From an uncultured Eubacterium sp. (GTDB taxonomy: Bacteria > Bacillota > Clostridia > Lachnospirales > Lachnospiraceae), in the NCBI GenBank assembly GCA_947385775.1, contig CANDMI010000042.1, forward strand, positions 1 to 33,530: a stretch of DNA of 33,530 bases, in the 5' to 3' direction. Made by a program: the position numbers and the translations under genes. Of this stretch, positions 26,493-32,845 are shown piece after piece. The number at the start of each line of letters is the position of its first letter. Position 1 is the stretch's first letter. Below the pieces are notes generated by a model. The model made no database searches. It was not told the DNA's origin and was given only the letters and a program-made list of their open reading frames with translations.

Positions 26493-26684
26493 GTTACAGT
26501 TCAGCCTTTGGCTTCACTTTAACGGAATCCGGCTCATTGGAAGTTTCTACGTTCCACTCCGGTCGGTGTTGAACAAACGTCCACTGGACGTTTAACACCC
26601 TTTGGCAAAGAGCCGGATTCCCACAACCACAACTTTATCATACGGACTTTGCAGTAAATGCAAAGTCCTGGGCTGAACTGTAAC
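26493..26684. mobile_element. MITE-like element 2 (192 bp, 8-bp target duplication)
   Basis: Perfect 14-bp terminal inverted repeats GTTACAGTTCAGCC / GGCTGAACTGTAAC, flanked on both sides by AAAACATC. Internal palindromes include GAATCCGGCTC/GAGCCGGATTC and ACGTCCA/TGGACGT. The right arm is related to that of element 1. No coding capacity. Confidence 0.85.
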
Positions 26685-26711
26685 AAAACATCCCCATTTC
26701 CTAATTAACTC

Positions 26712-26740
26712 TTGCAAATGAGCAAGGTACCATTTATAAT
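26712..26740 (+). promoter_or_regulatory. Promoter of the antisense RNA
   Basis: TTGCAA (26712-26717), 17-base spacer, TATAAT (26735-26740), pointing toward the 3' end of the 25-aa toxin-like gene. Confidence 0.7.
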
Positions 26741-26746
26741 CAGCTT

Positions 26747-26853
26747 ATAGACAGTTATAGGATTCTGGCATGTCCGATGATTGTCACCGGAAACTTATCA
26801 TAATATAAGTTCTTGCATGGCTATCCCCTATTGGCGTAGGAGATAGCCGTTTT
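26747..26853 (+). ncRNA. Probable antisense (antitoxin) RNA
   Basis: Predicted from the promoter at 26712-26740 to a hairpin GGCTATC/GATAGCC (26819-26825 with 26842-26848) followed by GTTTTA. The RNA would be about 105 nt and overlap the 3' end of the mRNA for the 25-aa peptide, whose stop codon is at 26852-26854. This is the arrangement of TxpA/RatA-like type I systems. Not homology-based. Confidence 0.55.
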
Positions 26854-26929
26854 ACTTACGGTGATTGTCGATATATGATACAGCTGCGAATATAACTAAC
26901 AGCAACGTCAAAACTTCTAACGTATCCAT
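26852..26929 (-). CDS. 25-aa hydrophobic peptide, probable type I toxin
   Basis: The ATG at 26927-26929 has a strong ribosome binding site AAGGAGG five bases upstream. The product, MDTLEVLTLLLVIFAAVSYI followed by DNHRK, is a single membrane helix with a charged tail, the build of small holin-like or Fst/TxpA-type toxins in Firmicutes. The upstream arm of a 7-bp hairpin with GAAA tetraloop (26939-26956) lies against and partly within the ribosome binding site, a common way to restrain toxin translation. A convergent promoter produces an RNA overlapping the 3' end. Toxicity is inferred from architecture alone; a small structural membrane peptide is possible. Confidence 0.65.
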   Translation of the reverse strand: MDTLEVLTLLLVIFAAVSYIDNHRK

Positions 26930-27003
26930 ATGTACCTCCTTCCCGTTTCCGGAAAGTACAACCACCAGACTATCCCTACGATGCACTAATCTGACTATGA
27001 AAT

Positions 27004-27011
27004 ATTATAGC
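27004..27011 (-). promoter_or_regulatory. Extended -10 promoter of the toxin-like gene
   Basis: On the minus strand TGCTATAAT (hexamer 27004-27009); no good -35, as expected for an extended -10. The predicted start near 26997 gives a 68-nt leader. The MITE at 27042 begins just upstream. Confidence 0.6.
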
Positions 27012-27041
27012 ATATTGGAACGGAAAAGTGTATATAAAATT

Positions 27042-27205
27042 GTCTCAGTTCAGCCCACGCCATTCACAAAGGCGCGCTTATGCGCTTTCCGCTGCTTCGC
27101 AGCTACCTTTGTTCATAAGACGGCGTTCCCTCAGCCGATGTGAGCAGCCGAAAATTCGTGCAAGCACGATTCCCCGCTGTTCATATCGGCTGGCTGAACT
27201 GTAAC
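27042..27205. mobile_element. MITE-like element 3 (164 bp, 8-bp target duplication)
   Basis: Ends GTCTCAGTTCAGCC and GGCTGAACTGTAAC, flanked by ATAAAATT at 27034-27041 and 27206-27213. Nearly identical in sequence and equal in length to the element at 27612-27775. Internal palindromes are GCTGCTTCGCAGC, GGCGCGCTTATGCGC and TCGTGCAAGCACGA. Confidence 0.85.
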
Positions 27206-27235
27206 ATAAAATTTACAAAATTTTTAAATTAGAGC

Positions 27236-27264
27236 TTGCTTTTCTTATACGAAAGATGTAGAAT
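27236..27264 (+). promoter_or_regulatory. Promoter of small RNA copy 1
   Basis: TTGCTT (27236-27241), 17-base spacer, TAGAAT (27259-27264), preceded by an A/T-only stretch resembling an UP element. Confidence 0.8.
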
Positions 27265-27270
27265 AAAGTA

Positions 27271-27408
27271 GAACGTACATGGGGGATGAAAAGTTTTGCT
27301 TTGGAATGGGCAATTCTTATTACTGGATATTTTTGACATAATTTTATTACTTTTACAAAAGACAAAACTATTCCATATGCTTGCTCGTAATTCCCCATGT
27401 ACTTCTTT
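27271..27408 (+). ncRNA. Tandem small RNA, copy 1
   Basis: The start predicted from the promoter coincides with the 5' arm of a 12-bp closing helix, GTACATGGGGGA (27275-27286) with TTCCCCATGTAC (27391-27402). A second helix pairs TGGAATGG (27302-27309) with CTATTCCA (27368-27375), leaving a 58-nt apical region. The 3' half shares GGATATT, ATTACTTTTACA and AAACTATTCCA with copies 2 and 3. It has no open reading frame with a ribosome binding site. Family not recognised. Confidence 0.7.
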
Positions 27409-27531
27409 TATGAAAAAATCTAACTTTGTTTATGTGCTCTTTCTTCTATCAATAGAATCTGCTGATGTTTTTCATATGTTAATTTCCACTTTTTCACAAA
27501 AAAGATTGAGGCGTAAAATCACAGAATACTT

Positions 27532-27603
27532 GTTGCAGTTCAGCCCGCGCTTATTCATGCAAGCATGATTCGCCCATCTTACAGCCGATGGCTGAACTGT
27601 TAC
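27532..27603. mobile_element. MITE-like element 4 (72 bp, short form)
   Basis: Ends GTTGCAGTTCAGCC and GGCTGAACTGTTAC with a much shorter interior (GCGCTTATTCATGCAAGCAT), a deletion derivative of the family. Flanking AATACT occurs on both sides but an exact 8-bp duplication is not kept. Confidence 0.7.
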
Positions 27604-27611
27604 CAAATACT

Positions 27612-27775
27612 GTAACTGTTCAGCCCACGCCATTCACAAAGGCGCGCTTATGCGCTTTCCGCTGCTTCGCAGCTACCTTTGTTCATAAGACGGCGTTCCC
27701 TCAGCCGATATGAGCAGCTGAAAATTCGTGCAAGCACGATTTCCCGCTGCTCACATCGGCTGGCTGAACTGTTAC
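27612..27775. mobile_element. MITE-like element 5 (164 bp)
   Basis: Ends GTAACTGTTCAGCC and GGCTGAACTGTTAC, nearly identical to element 3. It starts eight bases after element 4, and AATACT flanks both sides (27606-27611 and 27776-27781). Confidence 0.8.
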
Positions 27776-27803
27776 AATACTTTCTCAAAATTAAATTTTT
27801 AGC

Positions 27804-27832
27804 TTGTTTTTTTTGTGATTATGGTGTATAAT
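27804..27832 (+). promoter_or_regulatory. Promoter of small RNA copy 2
   Basis: TTGTTT (27804-27809), 17-base spacer, TATAAT (27827-27832), with an A/T-only upstream stretch. Confidence 0.85.
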
Positions 27833-27838
27833 AAATCC

Positions 27839-27980
27839 ATACACGGGATATGGGAAAGCATAATCATAGAACAGTTGATTTTGAGGCTTGATATTTTTTA
27901 CTTACATGAAAACACATTACATTTTTACATAAGATAAAGCTGTTTTATTTGTTTATGTGGATCTCTCCCGTGTCGTTTTG
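27839..27980 (+). ncRNA. Tandem small RNA, copy 2
   Basis: Closing helix ACACGGGA (27841-27848) with TCCCGTGT (27966-27973), second helix ATAGAACAG (27866-27874) with CTGTTTTAT (27940-27948), and a 65-nt apical region. The second helix has different bases from copies 1 and 3 but still pairs, i.e. compensatory change. Shared blocks TTGATATT, ATTAC, TTTTACA and GATAAAGCT. The 3' end is T-rich; transcription may stop there or at the hairpin at 28016. Confidence 0.72.
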
Positions 27981-28015
27981 TTTTTATTGTTTTTATATGG
28001 ATGAATTTATTGAGG

Positions 28016-28052
28016 TCTGCGGTTATAACAATATAACGCAGATTATTTTTTT
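28016..28052 (+). terminator. Intrinsic terminator downstream of small RNA copy 2
   Basis: TCTGCGGTTATA (28016-28027) pairs with TATAACGCAGA (28032-28042), one base bulged, followed by TTATTTTTTT. Confidence 0.75.
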
Positions 28053-28139
28053 CGATAAATCTTTTACTTTAAGTCTTTTACTTTTCAAATACGCCAGTGA
28101 AAATTTTGCATTTTTGTAGTAGAAAAATAAAATTATGTC

Positions 28140-28168
28140 TTGTATTTTTTATGCAAATGATGTAGAAT
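28140..28168 (+). promoter_or_regulatory. Promoter of small RNA copy 3
   Basis: TTGTAT (28140-28145), 17-base spacer, TAGAAT (28163-28168), preceded by an A/T-rich stretch. Confidence 0.8.
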
Positions 28169-28174
28169 ATAGAA

Positions 28175-28308
28175 GACACGGGAATGAGATGCACAGCATT
28201 GGGATAGGTAATACGACTGCTTTAACTATTACTTGATATTACATACTAGATTTTACATTACAGATAAAGCTATTCCAAATGCCTATGTACATCTCTCCCG
28301 TGTTTTTT
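28175..28308 (+). ncRNA. Tandem small RNA, copy 3
   Basis: Closing helix ACACGGGA (28176-28183) with TCCCGTGT (28296-28303), extended by GAGATG/CATCTC and GCATT/AATGC, then TGGGATAG (28200-28207) with CTATTCCA (28270-28277) and a 62-nt apical region. The closing helix runs directly into TTTTTT, so it may also act as terminator. It shares TTGATATT, TTTTACATTA and GATAAAGCTATTCCA with its paralogues. Confidence 0.75.
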
Positions 28309-28428
28309 CATTTATTCTTTGTTTCTCGAAACTTCGTAATACGTTTTATCCCGCATTTCTTACCAGATCCAGTTTAAAAATAACATAACGATCACGCAAA
28401 GCTAAGACGCGCGTTCTCTTAATAAAAC

Positions 28429-28472
28429 AAAAAATCCCCCGGCATCTGACAGTCTCCTGTCAAATACCGGGG
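28429..28472 (-). terminator. Strong terminator of the surface-protein gene
   Basis: On the minus strand CCCCGGTATTTGACAG pairs with CTGTCAGATGCCGGGG (28457-28472 with 28437-28452), loop GAGA, followed by GATTTTTTG. Confidence 0.93.
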
Positions 28473-28477
28473 AAAAC

Positions 28478-28555
28478 GGGCCAAAGACCTTACTTCTAGT
28501 CTATGTATCATCCTGCCGCTTCGGCCCTATGGAAAAGCTTTCGAAAAAGCATTCC
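28478..28555 (-). other. Structured 3' UTR of the surface-protein mRNA
   Basis: Between stop codon and terminator are two further stems: GGAA-GCTTT / AAAGC-TTCC around TTCG (28531-28555), and GGGCCGAAG with CTTTGGCCC (28519-28527 with 28478-28486), enclosing 32 nt. I recognise no riboswitch class. A role in mRNA stability is a guess. Confidence 0.5.
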
Positions 28556-28561
28556 GTCTGA

Positions 28562-31500
28562 TTATTTTCCTTCTACTTTAAAGGTCTTTACCTTCCAAGC
28601 GTTGTCGTTATCTTTGATATCCGCCGCAGTTGTTACACTACTCTTAACAACATAAACGATTATTTCAACGTCTTTCTTTGCACCTGTAATTTCTGTTGGA
28701 GTAGACGTAAATTTATCTCTATTCGTCGCATCAAGAAGATTATTTACAAACCCATCAGATCCTACTTTTATGATAACATCATAATCTCCTGAAACCTTGG
28801 AATTATTTATAAATTTATCGTTTATATTTGCAACATCTGACAACTTAGCCGCTGAACCAGAAGTTACTGCTACGCTGGAGTTCAGCTTGGAAGCAACTGC
28901 GTTTACGATGCCGGCCGGATCACTGTTTGTTACACCACCTGCGACAACATTCTCTGGATTCTTCTCATCCTTACCATCTTTCTTTAAAGTCAATGCTGAT
29001 CCATTGCCGGTAGTTGCTGCAACTGGTTTAGCCTTTGTTTCAACATCTAAAGTTACATCTTTTGTTGCTTCAACTGTAACTAAATCAATAGCTTTATCTG
29101 TAATACCATCCTCATGTACAACCGCAATCGTAGAAGGATTCTTTACAGCTACATTGCTGATCGTGCCATTAATACCATTTGTAATCTCAACTTTTACGTT
29201 CTTATTTGCAACGTTGTTAACAGATAAGGTCGTAATTGTACCACTCTCATTCACAATCTTTGCGTTTGAGCTGCCAGTGTTTACTTCGACTAAGTCAATT
29301 GTAGCTCCGTTGTTTCTAAGTGTCTTGCTGGCAATTGCACGGATGTCTACCTTGCCGAATACTAAATTACCACTGTTAGATTTTATTGAATCCCAATCCG
29401 CATTCGGTGTGCTGATCTTAAGAGTTGCAATTCTGCTTTCCGTGGCAGTTGAATTTGTAATCCTGCATCTCGCGCCATCGGTAAAGGTAGCCTTTACTTC
29501 ACCTGAAATACTCTTACCATTTAATTCAATATCTACCGGACGAGTAATATTCAAGCCACCAGTAATATTCTCACTCAATATGATCTTGCGGTATTTATCG
29601 CTTCTGATCGCATTCTCGATAGCTGCCTTGTAATCTGTAAGACTATCGTTAAATGAGATATACTGTTCACTTCTATCATCGCCAAATACAGCGTCATCCG
29701 AGGTAGCACATACTACATCATGGTTATATGGCAGTGCCATTTCCACTAAGTCTGCCAATACCTGACCTGCACTGGATGTTACTCTGTTGCTAATTGTTAA
29801 TGTAATGTTTCTTCCCCCATTTGCATCGTCGATGACATATGCAGATCTCTTCGGTATTACGATCGTTACAGAATCAATTACATTCGAATGATCATCATAG
29901 CCTTCAATACCCTGCAATACATACGCATCAGATGGAACCTGGTTACTGTTGATCGAGTAATTACGCGCGTCAAATACGATCGAATTCTTGTTAACCGCAT
30001 TTGTAAACTTCACAAAGATGTAACGGTCGCCATTGTCGCCAGTTGCTTGCCCAGCGTCCCAATAGTTGCCAGACTGTGTGCCAAAACCATATTTCTTAGT
30101 TTTTGATACAGAAGCCCATGCTACTCTAAAGCCCGCTACGGTACCTGTTACTTCAAATGTCTTGCTGACTGTGCCTGTGTTGCCATAGTCATCGGAAATA
30201 CCGGTAATATGAAGCGTCCAGTCTTTTGCGCTTGGCAGCTCTTCTTCTGGCTCTACCGCTACAGACATATCGTCATCCGCTAAATCTACAAATTTGCCTT
30301 TGATTGTTCTTCCAACGGTTGGGCTGATAAACTGTGCCGCAGACTGCTGGATCCCTTTTTCCCAGGAAGCCGACTGCTTTACAGATGGCGTAGATCCTTC
30401 TTTATTTAAGCCCTTTGCACTGTTATCCTGACGAATCTTGATCGGCTCGCTGAATTTTACATTCGCTTTGGAGCCAGTCCAGGTCATCTCTGTCATTGTC
30501 GGAGCGGTCGTATCCGGAGCCTGCATCTTTGGATCAGCGGAAAGGTCATAGGAAATCTCTGACGCATTCTTCATGCCATTATCTTTGTTGATCAGTTTGT
30601 TTGCGCCGATCACAAGCTTATATTTATGGCCGTAGAAGTAATCATTGTATGTGGAGCCAAGCTCGCCATAAACCTTTGTCCAGTCCTTTGTCGTCTCTAC
30701 CAAATACTTCTCATCCGTAACCTTTGTTACACGGATTGGATTGTCGCCGTCTTTTGCGCCAATATTCTTATCATTCTCTCTTAACTGAAGAATGGATGTT
30801 TCATTTTGATTCGTCTCACTTGAAGTTTCCGAATCCGCATTCTTCACTTCGAAGAAATCATCGCTGAATACCTTTGCAACCGGAGCGTTGAACGTGATCA
30901 TGTACTGCTCTGGAGACTGTACCTCTACTTCCTTGATCGCCGGCTGTGTCGTATCGTCGTCAATATGGAAGTTCTTTGTATCTGTTGTGATAATATTGTT
31001 TACGCCGGATGTATTCGACGCCCAGTCACCGACATTCTGTACGGTCAGTATATTGTCGCCTACATCAAAACGCGGATAATCCACAATCTCTTTGTTATCA
31101 GAATCTTTAATCTTTCTTTCGCCTAATTTGATCGTAACAACGTTGCGGTCGTTCTCTCCGTCTTTGCCGGAGCCTACTGTAGCTTCCGCCGCCTTCCCAT
31201 CTTTGTCGCCCCACATATCCAAATTCAAGCCTCTGCCGCCAACCAGGTAATTTGAGGTCAAATCAGCTGCATGAGCTTTATTAAGAGCAGCAACATTTCC
31301 TGGAACCACCGCTTCGGAATATGTTACAATCAAGGTTCTGCGGCCTTGTGTCTCAACCTTCATTACACGCGGCGTCTCAGAATCCGTCAGTACAAATGTC
31401 TCTGTATAAGTCGTTGTCTTCTTTGTAGCCGGATCTGTCAACTGTACACGTACGCCGATATGTCTGTTATTTGACAACGGTTTGTTCACCAACACCTGCA

Positions 31501-32845
31501 GCGCACGATTATTTTCCGCAACTGCACGAAGGTTTACAACCTGACCTGCACCCTTTATTGACGGATCTGTAGTATAGCCATTTGTACTATTATTCTCTAC
31601 TGTGCCAAAGTTCTTGCTTGCAGCCTGCTGCGCAGTAATATCATCTAATACTTCAATCTTGACCTTGCTTGTGTCAATCTGGCCGTTTGTCTTGAAGTAA
31701 TCGTCTTCAATCGCATCCTGGAAGAACAAGGTAAGGCGGTCTGCGTAATTGGACTCTGCGCCGATTACGACTGGAGTAGAGATGCCTTCCAAAACCGGAG
31801 TCATGTTGATGTTGATCGTCTCTTTCTTACCTCTAAGGCCTTCTTCATCTGTGCCTTCCACACGGATGATCTCCGCTGTAACATGCGCTGTCTGCGCTAC
31901 ATCCAGCGCCACAGATTTCAGCACGTTTTCCGTCTTGCCTTCTGTTGTTACAACGTCCGGTCTGGAGAAGCTGCCGCGGTCAGTTGTGAAGCGGATCGTA
32001 TAGTTTTTGTCTTTGATCGTATTGCCGTTTGGATCTTTTACTTCGCAGACAATCGGCAGTTCCGCATAACCATCCGCTTTTAACTGGTTCTTTTCACTGG
32101 ATGATTTCAGCTCTAAGTGATAATCCTTTGTCGCATCCGCCTGCATTGTGAATGTCGCGGACAATGCGTCTACCGCTTTGCCTTCCGCATCCTTTAAGCC
32201 GGTTACGTTTAATGTATAGGTCTTGCCCGCTTCCGCGCCAGCCAGCGTCAAGGTAACCGTCATGCCGTCGCGCACTTCTACGTTTTCTACCGTTACGCCT
32301 TCTTCCGCAACCTTGAAGTTCTCTTTTACAAGAGTCGCTTGGTCAAGGACAGCCGAGAATTTTACGTCTACGTTTGTCTTAGATGTAGCTGTTGCCGAGC
32401 TGATCTTTACGCCTTCTGGTGTAGGCGGCGTTGGATCGTCAGTCCCTGGATCTACTGTAGTTGACTTTGGATTTACCGTTACTTTGCAGACTAATTTCTT
32501 CGTGTTATTCTTTTTCTTGTTGCTTGTCTTTAACTTAACGGTTACTTTTACGTTTTTGTGTTTCTTCTTGCAATTTTTTGCTTTCAGAACAACGGAAGTA
32601 GATTTCTTTGTAGCAGTTACAACGTCTTTCCTTGCGGAAGTCGCGCTTGTAACTTTCCACTTCAGGGAGTTGTTCTTAAGCTTCAGTGTCTTTTTCGCGC
32701 CAGCTTTTAATGTGACAGATTTTGCGCTTAACGCTACATATTTCGTAGCAGCGGAAGCTGTCGCCATATTCGCAGCTGACAGTGAGAATGCCATTGCAGC
32801 AGATAATGATACTGCGACCACTCTCGTCATGAAACTCTTTTTCAT
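28562..32845 (-). CDS. Large secreted surface protein, S-layer/Ig-like, 1427 aa
   Basis: The protein starts behind AAGGAGG with a signal peptide (KKSFMTRVVAVSLSAAMAFS..., cleavage near residue 33). Residues about 34-130 form a very Lys-rich Ig-like (Big_2-type) domain beginning TKYVALSAKSVTLKAGAKKT. An acidic Pro linker (DPGTDDPTPPTPEG) follows, then SbsA-like Ig domains (VDVKFSAVLDQATLVKENFKV and similar units near YMITFNAPVAKVF and ANVKFSEPIKI). The last 350 residues are Val/Asn-rich and look like a beta-helix (IELNGKSISGEVKATF onward). No LPXTG, SLH or C-terminal membrane helix is present, so attachment may depend on the cationic N-terminal domain. The strong promoter, 5' stem-loop and terminator suggest an abundant cell-surface protein. 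Confidence 0.9.
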   Translation of the reverse strand: MKKSFMTRVVAVSLSAAMAFSLSAANMATASAATKYVALSAKSVTLKAGAKKTLKLKNNSLKWKVTSATSARKDVVTATKKSTSVVLKAKNCKKKHKNVKVTVKLKTSNKKKNNTKKLVCKVTVNPKSTTVDPGTDDPTPPTPEGVKISSATATSKTNVDVKFSAVLDQATLVKENFKVAEEGVTVENVEVRDGMTVTLTLAGAEAGKTYTLNVTGLKDAEGKAVDALSATFTMQADATKDYHLELKSSSEKNQLKADGYAELPIVCEVKDPNGNTIKDKNYTIRFTTDRGSFSRPDVVTTEGKTENVLKSVALDVAQTAHVTAEIIRVEGTDEEGLRGKKETININMTPVLEGISTPVVIGAESNYADRLTLFFQDAIEDDYFKTNGQIDTSKVKIEVLDDITAQQAASKNFGTVENNSTNGYTTDPSIKGAGQVVNLRAVAENNRALQVLVNKPLSNNRHIGVRVQLTDPATKKTTTYTETFVLTDSETPRVMKVETQGRRTLIVTYSEAVVPGNVAALNKAHAADLTSNYLVGGRGLNLDMWGDKDGKAAEATVGSGKDGENDRNVVTIKLGERKIKDSDNKEIVDYPRFDVGDNILTVQNVGDWASNTSGVNNIITTDTKNFHIDDDTTQPAIKEVEVQSPEQYMITFNAPVAKVFSDDFFEVKNADSETSSETNQNETSILQLRENDKNIGAKDGDNPIRVTKVTDEKYLVETTKDWTKVYGELGSTYNDYFYGHKYKLVIGANKLINKDNGMKNASEISYDLSADPKMQAPDTTAPTMTEMTWTGSKANVKFSEPIKIRQDNSAKGLNKEGSTPSVKQSASWEKGIQQSAAQFISPTVGRTIKGKFVDLADDDMSVAVEPEEELPSAKDWTLHITGISDDYGNTGTVSKTFEVTGTVAGFRVAWASVSKTKKYGFGTQSGNYWDAGQATGDNGDRYIFVKFTNAVNKNSIVFDARNYSINSNQVPSDAYVLQGIEGYDDHSNVIDSVTIVIPKRSAYVIDDANGGRNITLTISNRVTSSAGQVLADLVEMALPYNHDVVCATSDDAVFGDDRSEQYISFNDSLTDYKAAIENAIRSDKYRKIILSENITGGLNITRPVDIELNGKSISGEVKATFTDGARCRITNSTATESRIATLKISTPNADWDSIKSNSGNLVFGKVDIRAIASKTLRNNGATIDLVEVNTGSSNAKIVNESGTITTLSVNNVANKNVKVEITNGINGTISNVAVKNPSTIAVVHEDGITDKAIDLVTVEATKDVTLDVETKAKPVAATTGNGSALTLKKDGKDEKNPENVVAGGVTNSDPAGIVNAVASKLNSSVAVTSGSAAKLSDVANINDKFINNSKVSGDYDVIIKVGSDGFVNNLLDATNRDKFTSTPTEITGAKKDVEIIVYVVKSSVTTAADIKDNDNAWKVKTFKVEGK

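Follow-up and report, generated by a model that had tools for sequence, protein, structure and literature searches.

Three tandem candidate RNA genes of an uncultured Eubacterium sp. with homology to the strand opposite an IS4-like transposase gene

On balance, we favour the view that three tandem RNA genes of an uncultured Eubacterium sp. constitute a solo family whose ancestor was an antisense RNA, similar to RNA-OUT, made by an IS4-like insertion sequence (IS). The three copies lie within the window, i.e. the whole 33.5-kb stretch of DNA that was analysed (33 530 nucleotides), and their coordinates are collected in Table 1. The features computed here that bear on this view are the homology to the IS, a promoter sequence conserved among members of the IS subfamily, stems whose pairs have changed on both sides, the loss of the transposase frame and, in a second genome, a further solo copy near the homologue of the neighbouring gene.

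Promoter-like sites and paired stems of the three copies

The sequence-only reading of this DNA had placed a promoter-like site (TTGNNT, a 17-bp spacer and TAKAAT) in front of each of three small-RNA genes. These sites were borne out as the only matches to the pattern in the window, all three exact and all on the + strand (Table 1), against a mean of 0.10 in the shuffled window and with none of 100 shuffles reaching three; as the sites were first picked via this very pattern, the promoter shared by the three copies is partly the reader's selection. Each unit has the same layout and combines an A/T-rich stretch and the promoter-like site with two stems, one of them the closing stem, a large loop rich in A and U, and an end rich in T. 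The predicted +1 (7 nt past the −10) falls 6, 2 and 1 nt upstream of the closing-stem starts in copies 1, 2 and 3 respectively, near the 5′ arm as had been proposed, and the T-rich end said to follow the closing stem is present at each copy. A generic promoter and terminator scan of positions 26600–28600 called none of the three sites a promoter, because it demanded four of six matches to TTGACA, and none of the three copy ends a terminator, because loops were restricted to 3–8.

Table 1. Features of the three RNA copies and their neighbourhood in the window (positions are those of the window).
Feature	Position	Strand	Evidence
Promoter-like site, copy 1 (TTGCTT-17-TAGAAT)	27236..27264	+	Motif scan; aligns with the IS antisense promoter
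RNA copy 1, predicted ends	27271..27408	+	Fold z −4.5; model R1 134 bits (training sequence)
Closing stem, copy 1	27277–27284 with 27393–27400	+	
Promoter-like site, copy 2 (TTGTTT-17-TATAAT)	27804..27832	+	Motif scan
RNA copy 2, predicted ends	27839..27985	+	Fold z −2.3; model R1 118.6 bits (training sequence)
Closing stem, copy 2	27841–27848 with 27966–27973	+	
Promoter-like site, copy 3 (TTGTAT-17-TAGAAT)	28140..28168	+	Motif scan
RNA copy 3, predicted ends	28175..28312	+	Fold z −5.2; model R1 114.8 bits (training sequence)
Closing stem, copy 3	28176–28182 with 28297–28303	+	
Transposase-frame remnant opposite copy 1, in a 61-codon open piece	27234..27314	−	Weak: tblastn 33% over 27 amino acids, E 2.1
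Transposase-frame remnant opposite copy 3	28129..28218	−	tblastn 47% over 32 amino acids, E 0.012 for the window
Putative surface-protein gene, neighbour, convergent with the RNAs	28562..32845	−	

Pairwise, the copies are identical at 68–77% of aligned bases, and the mean column identity of all three, some flank included, is 72%. The sequences said to be shared by their 3′ halves stood with a correction for copy 1, which has GGATATT and GACAAAACT where TTGATATT and GATAAAGCT had been given. A 90-amino-acid ORF with a TTG start, a mechanical call, overlaps copy 1.

All three copies fold better than their dinucleotide shuffles (z-scores in Table 1). In a structure laid on the three-copy alignment and chosen by eye from the same three sequences, 61 of the 63 cells pair (96.8%), a value reached by two of 500 shuffles, and shifting the partner by 1–3 columns lowers the pairing to 37–57%. 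Because of this choice by eye we give more weight to the double changes than to the pairing percentage: seven of the 21 stem pairs have changed on both sides across the three copies. These double changes, together with the relatives found elsewhere, support the proposal that the copies belong to a structured RNA family of several members, each preceded by a promoter-like site.

No Rfam family reached its gathering score anywhere in the window. At the much laxer limit of E 10, 17 matches were obtained in 27150–28400, including Clostridiales-1 RNA (RF01699; E 5e-7; 39.9 bits against a cut-off of 48), which falls on a neighbouring repeat (27580–27768, minus strand) and not on the copies. The other matches (E 0.19 to 9.1), mostly to microRNA and snoRNA models, look like chance hits to long hairpins. 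The suggested comparison with 6S RNA (RF00013) and Clostridiales-1 thus yielded no family that matches the three copies. The copies do resemble 6S RNA in being long hairpins with an open region, and might on that account be read as 6S-like RNAs that mimic an open promoter. We strongly disfavour this reading and give it next to no credence, as RF00013 has no match at E up to 10 in 27150–28400, the genome carries its proper 6S RNA on another contig than the window (contig 11; 66.8 bits, cut-off 46.4), and the copies share homology with an IS, on its antisense strand.

Homology to the antisense strand of a transposase gene

When the copies were compared by blastn with 13 genomes of the genus, matches were obtained in one other genome, that of Eubacterium plexicaudatum (n = 21), where they fall on IS copies, on the reverse strand of the transposase gene. 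The covariance-model search that had been proposed gave the same picture. A model built from the three window copies only, with the promoters left out (R1), found 22 places in E. plexicaudatum, of which 21 are the IS antisense strands already detected by blastn (E 5.4e-7 to 2.3e-6); these matches span the whole model, including both hairpin arms. The 22nd place is the solo copy described below. The IS is ∼1.68 kb in length (1679 positions), with 16-bp inverted ends and a 459-amino-acid transposase. We call it IS4-like only, since the transposase scores below the curated IS4 cut-off (34.8 bits with the NCBIfam model IS4_1, NF033592; cut-off 115). It is also below the cut-offs of the IS1380 and IS701 models and of the Pfam DDE transposase models that it matches.

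The homologous part of the IS is the antisense strand of the first ∼80 transposase codons. A blastn search of the window with the IS (E up to 1) returned the three copies only (E 1e-12, 8e-9 and 2e-5), and the matches are confined to IS positions 1297–1557 of 1679, i.e. the antisense unit. Neither the IS ends nor the remaining transposase gene gave a blastn match in the copies. Copy 3 is 74% identical to the IS across the promoter and 5′ half, and in a laxer local alignment copy 1 extends ∼25 nt beyond the IS start codon. Stops close the transposase frame in copies 2 and 3, and copy 1 keeps an open piece of 61 codons. No transposase homologue was found by protein search in the copies' own draft genome, a 152-contig assembly of a kind from which repeats often drop out. 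These comparisons lend good support to an origin of the window RNAs from a putative antisense RNA of the IS.

Twelve ISs, mostly from records titled Lachnospiraceae, were aligned by codon; eleven of them are 59–67% identical to the first at the protein level. An antisense TTG-N20-TANNNT is found at codon 66 in all 12, against at most three of 12 at any other of the 1349 positions and at most one of 10 at any position of the sense strand; the 12 members are akin, and the count does not amount to 12 independent trials. Every member would accordingly carry a candidate promoter of its own within the transposase gene, aimed at the start of that gene. In distant transposase relatives the codon-66 antisense site occurs in none of 39, and the amino acids that encode it (FYI, RKTS) differ there. 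The 12 members were taken from 80 loci, omitting L092 (same record and match figures as L091), L095 and L102 (broken frames), loci that were partial or distant, and all further copies from E. plexicaudatum. Two members, L098 and L100, were trimmed at the first stop (161 and 264 codons respectively), and L082/L084 and L086/L098 are near-copies. The 39 distant relatives come from the 46 loci L103–L148, leaving out L104–L106 and L112 (genome and figures the same as L103), L118, L134 and L122 (E. plexicaudatum).

Codon conservation beyond that of the amino acids, calculated over the 62 of 66 pairs with < 75% identical codons, peaks at codons 1–25 (+0.25 to +0.17) and 66–80 (+0.14), and is at most +0.10 elsewhere. 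Translation initiation can also cause the former peak; the latter we attribute to the predicted antisense promoter. The IS antisense strand folds better than within-sequence synonymous shuffles in all 12 members, albeit modestly (z −0.9 to −2.7). With codons drawn gene-wide, its z is negative in 10 of 12 (−1.7 to +0.5), and the sense strand has a negative z in nine of 12.

Two further observations concern the IS itself. Its leader (L011, 1742–1863) is predicted to fold into a long stem in which CCTCCC is paired to GGGAGG, the ribosome-binding site for transposase translation. Four IS copies in E. plexicaudatum (L008, L009, L010 and L018) align with the full copy over the 5′ 446–450 bp only, sharing a near-identical inner boundary (L011, 1415–1418) and retaining the antisense unit.

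A solo copy in Eubacterium plexicaudatum

The putative surface protein encoded next to the RNAs in the window has a single match in E. plexicaudatum (E up to 1e-20), and ∼5 kb past the end of this match lies a solo copy, at 5493418–5493563 on the minus strand of contig 1, in the same convergent layout as in the window. Its R1 score of 24.9 bits (E 0.16 genome-wide; 7.5e-4 within the surrounding 32-kb stretch) is weak proof if taken alone, because the reverse strands of two of the training sequences score no lower (25.5 bits for copy 3 and 24.9 bits for copy 1). Its promoter (TTGCTT-17-TAGAAT) provides independent support, as R1, with which the copy was found, holds no promoter. In addition, the copy folds with a z of −3.5 and has AGATAAAGCTATTC in common with copy 3, at a place where the IS has AGATGAAACTGTTC. 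Taken together, promoter, fold, shared AGATAAAGCTATTC and location make a convincing case that this solo copy is real.

Across the four solo copies, the TTG and TA.AAT elements are identical in six of six comparisons (0.86 for the whole hexamers) and the 17-bp spacing is constant, whereas the identity of the spacer is 0.63. The two genomes are well separated: in the trp region the best match between them is 67% identical DNA over 1.8 kb, with other pieces at 65–82%, and at 67% unselected relics should be hard to recognise. In a tree, a branch (84/94) sets the four solo copies apart, a grouping to which we give little weight, since their own branches are long and may have been joined falsely.

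None of the 11 other genomes searched within the genus gave a solo copy with R1, and neither did 12 other genomes with the IS; nor was one found in 396 other genomes of the family sample among the matches listed, under stricter filters and with eight candidates scored per genome. As the other searched genomes gave none, the solo form rests on two genomes. Four weak R1 hits in two of the 12 IS-bearing genomes proved to be IS copies, one of them split into two pieces. On the surface-gene flanks of eight other genomes, R1 gave nothing below E 1 (filters off for L187–L195, default filters for L196–L202). A family search at the DNA level produced matches in three of 299 genomes besides its own, all 23–39 nt in length and A/T-rich (L066–L068). 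The pattern AGAYAAARCTRTTY matched 17 times in 13 genomes, four times in the known copies, and its reversed control 34 times; TTG-17-TA..T lies upstream of only two of the other 13 matches, L210 and L220. Both were rejected, L210 because its promoter-like site is too close (31 nt upstream) and L220 because it is without the fold.

The surroundings of the surface-protein gene have features of their own. An 18-nt stretch of copy 3 (28257–28274) is identical to part of the sense strand of the gene (29087–29104; E 0.001), probably by chance. Repeated ORFs reminiscent of Rpn-type transposase genes crowd beside the surface-protein match in E. plexicaudatum (L174), and in six of the eight other genomes (L187–L190, L192 and L194) the contig ends 0.7–2.7 kb past the match. 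The flank is perhaps a hot spot for repeats.

Possible origin and role of the solo RNAs

In the intact IS, a reverse-strand promoter inside the transposase gene (codons 66–76) would fire towards the start codon. Its product would be a hairpin RNA with a predicted length of 170–190 nt, ending in U residues near the start codon, and by analogy with RNA-OUT of IS10 it would block translation of the transposase message by pairing with its start. The fold of the IS message, which is predicted to put the ribosome-binding site in a long stem, may be an additional safeguard, like the one described for IS200 (PMC12594629). In the lineage of the window, the part that begins with the A/T-rich upstream stretch and runs to the T-rich end would have been retained as a solo gene. 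Its loop would have become shorter and its copies would have risen to three, with loss of both the transposase frame and the ends of the IS.

The retained promoters and folds suggest that the solo RNAs still do something. They most likely still act in trans via base pairing, which would be directed firstly at the messages of related incoming ISs; we tentatively rank silencing first because it needs no new function. That the solo RNAs are transcribed, that they act in trans and what they act on is what we infer. Complementarity between the solo RNAs and the IS message is partial (z −3.7, −7.3, −10.6 and −7.4), and some is expected from descent alone. It fits a drifted trans-silencer, or one adapted to a different variant of the IS, and the loop bases that are shared by solo copies and unlike those of the IS would fit a new target.

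The strongest competitor is that the copies are dead, i.e. decaying fragments that go back to old insertions of the IS 5′ region or to its duplication, with promoter and hairpin as leftovers of the IS. This would agree with their homology to IS DNA, with the broken or shrunken transposase frames, with the repeats that crowd the region and the contig ends past the surface-protein match in six of eight relatives, and with the lack of solo copies in the other genomes searched. We nevertheless consider decay unlikely, although by no means negligible. Random remains of the IS 5′ region fit poorly with blastn homology over the antisense unit only, with TTG, TA.AAT and 17-bp spacing unchanged beside a spacer that is 63% alike, with seven pairs carrying double changes, and with a fourth copy, made of the same parts and close to the homologous gene, in a species with 67% identity in its trp DNA. 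The constancy of the promoter parts and spacing, the double changes and the further solo copy near a homologous gene are the reasons why we regard the window copies as having been kept.

If kept, the RNAs could also have been exapted by the host, acting now, away from the IS, on host messages or by binding a protein. The bases that copy 3 and the E. plexicaudatum solo copy share and the IS lacks, the position of both near homologous surface-protein genes and the absence of a transposase match from the copies' own genome all point this way, and the 5′tnpA RNA of IS200 in Salmonella offers a precedent (PMC12594629). The complementarity to the IS message, partial as it is, persists nonetheless, and we rate exaptation as improbable, somewhat more so than decay. 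Descent from the IS antisense RNA with retained base pairing remains our preferred reading. Its fullest form, put forward tentatively as a possibility that we hold to be somewhat less than even, is that the host has taken over the antisense brake of a transposon. Freed and multiplied, the solo silencer RNA genes would form a heritable RNA shield against members of one IS subfamily even after the IS is gone, and two distant species of the genus would have held them beside the same gene for a surface protein.

IS10 is a member of the IS4 family, a kind that the transposase found here resembles weakly. As with RNA-OUT of IS10/Tn10, the predicted IS RNA is a hairpin, antisense to the transposase gene and aimed at the start of its message. 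Stable hairpins are predicted for the window copies, the E. plexicaudatum solo copy and the IS (z −2.4 for the last). RNA-OUT is 69 nt in length and uses the first 35 nt for pairing to the initiation region (PMC5006887), whereas the IS RNA is predicted to be much longer, with its promoter ∼200 nt inside the gene. The IS antisense RNA is by position the complement of the message, but its U-rich end is predicted to fall near the start codon and not to reach the ribosome-binding site. It lies opposite the 5′ part of the transposase gene; the window copies lie opposite degraded remnants only. The solo copies further differ from RNA-OUT in being solo genes of diverged sequence, and are partly, not perfectly, complementary to the IS message.

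Regulatory RNAs derived from ISs are already known. Asr9 and Ssr9 of ISPpu9 are IS-tied sRNAs, one of them antisense to the leader of the transposase message; Asr9 pairs with the 5′-UTR and is said to aid expression, and the portion of the report available mentions no diverged solo family (PMC8450116). The small structured 5′tnpA RNA of IS200, to which a host role is ascribed, differs in being a sense-strand piece of the IS transcript that is still bound to the IS (PMC12594629). In Vibrio parahaemolyticus, the RNA-OUT svpa1401.1 is a copy away from the transposase gene that it supposedly controls; it has one difference from the cis copy (PMC6601013), which marks it as a recent copy and not as a diverged, multiplied family. 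Our search of the open-access literature found no report of a diverged, multiplied solo antisense family. Antisense control of transposases is classic, with the RNAs of the papers cited here being transposon-owned or near-identical copies. Solo genes, if the reading is true, would show a host keeping a transposon's repressor as an RNA defence or turning it into a regulator. E. plexicaudatum ASF492, a strain cultured from the mouse gut, would allow a direct test of the candidate antisense promoter that this IS subfamily of gut bacteria conserves within its codons.

Two 187-nt repeats (27036–27222 and 27606–27792) stop shortly before the promoters of copies 1 and 2, their offsets being almost equal. 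These repeats are 91% alike, against 68% for the two copies, which fits no simple duplication history. Further repeats, at 26493–26684 and 27521–27603, have CAGTTCAGCC / GGCTGAACTG ends in common with the 187-nt repeats and perhaps form a MITE family with them, and Clostridiales-1 may be a mobile repeat of the 187-nt kind. On the minus strand, positions 26852–26929 encode a hydrophobic peptide of 25 residues (MDTLEVLTLLLVIFAAVSYIDNHRK), with a GGAGG site before it and an apparent inverted repeat after it. The peptide has no Pfam match at E up to 1, and is reminiscent of small holin-like or type I toxin peptides.
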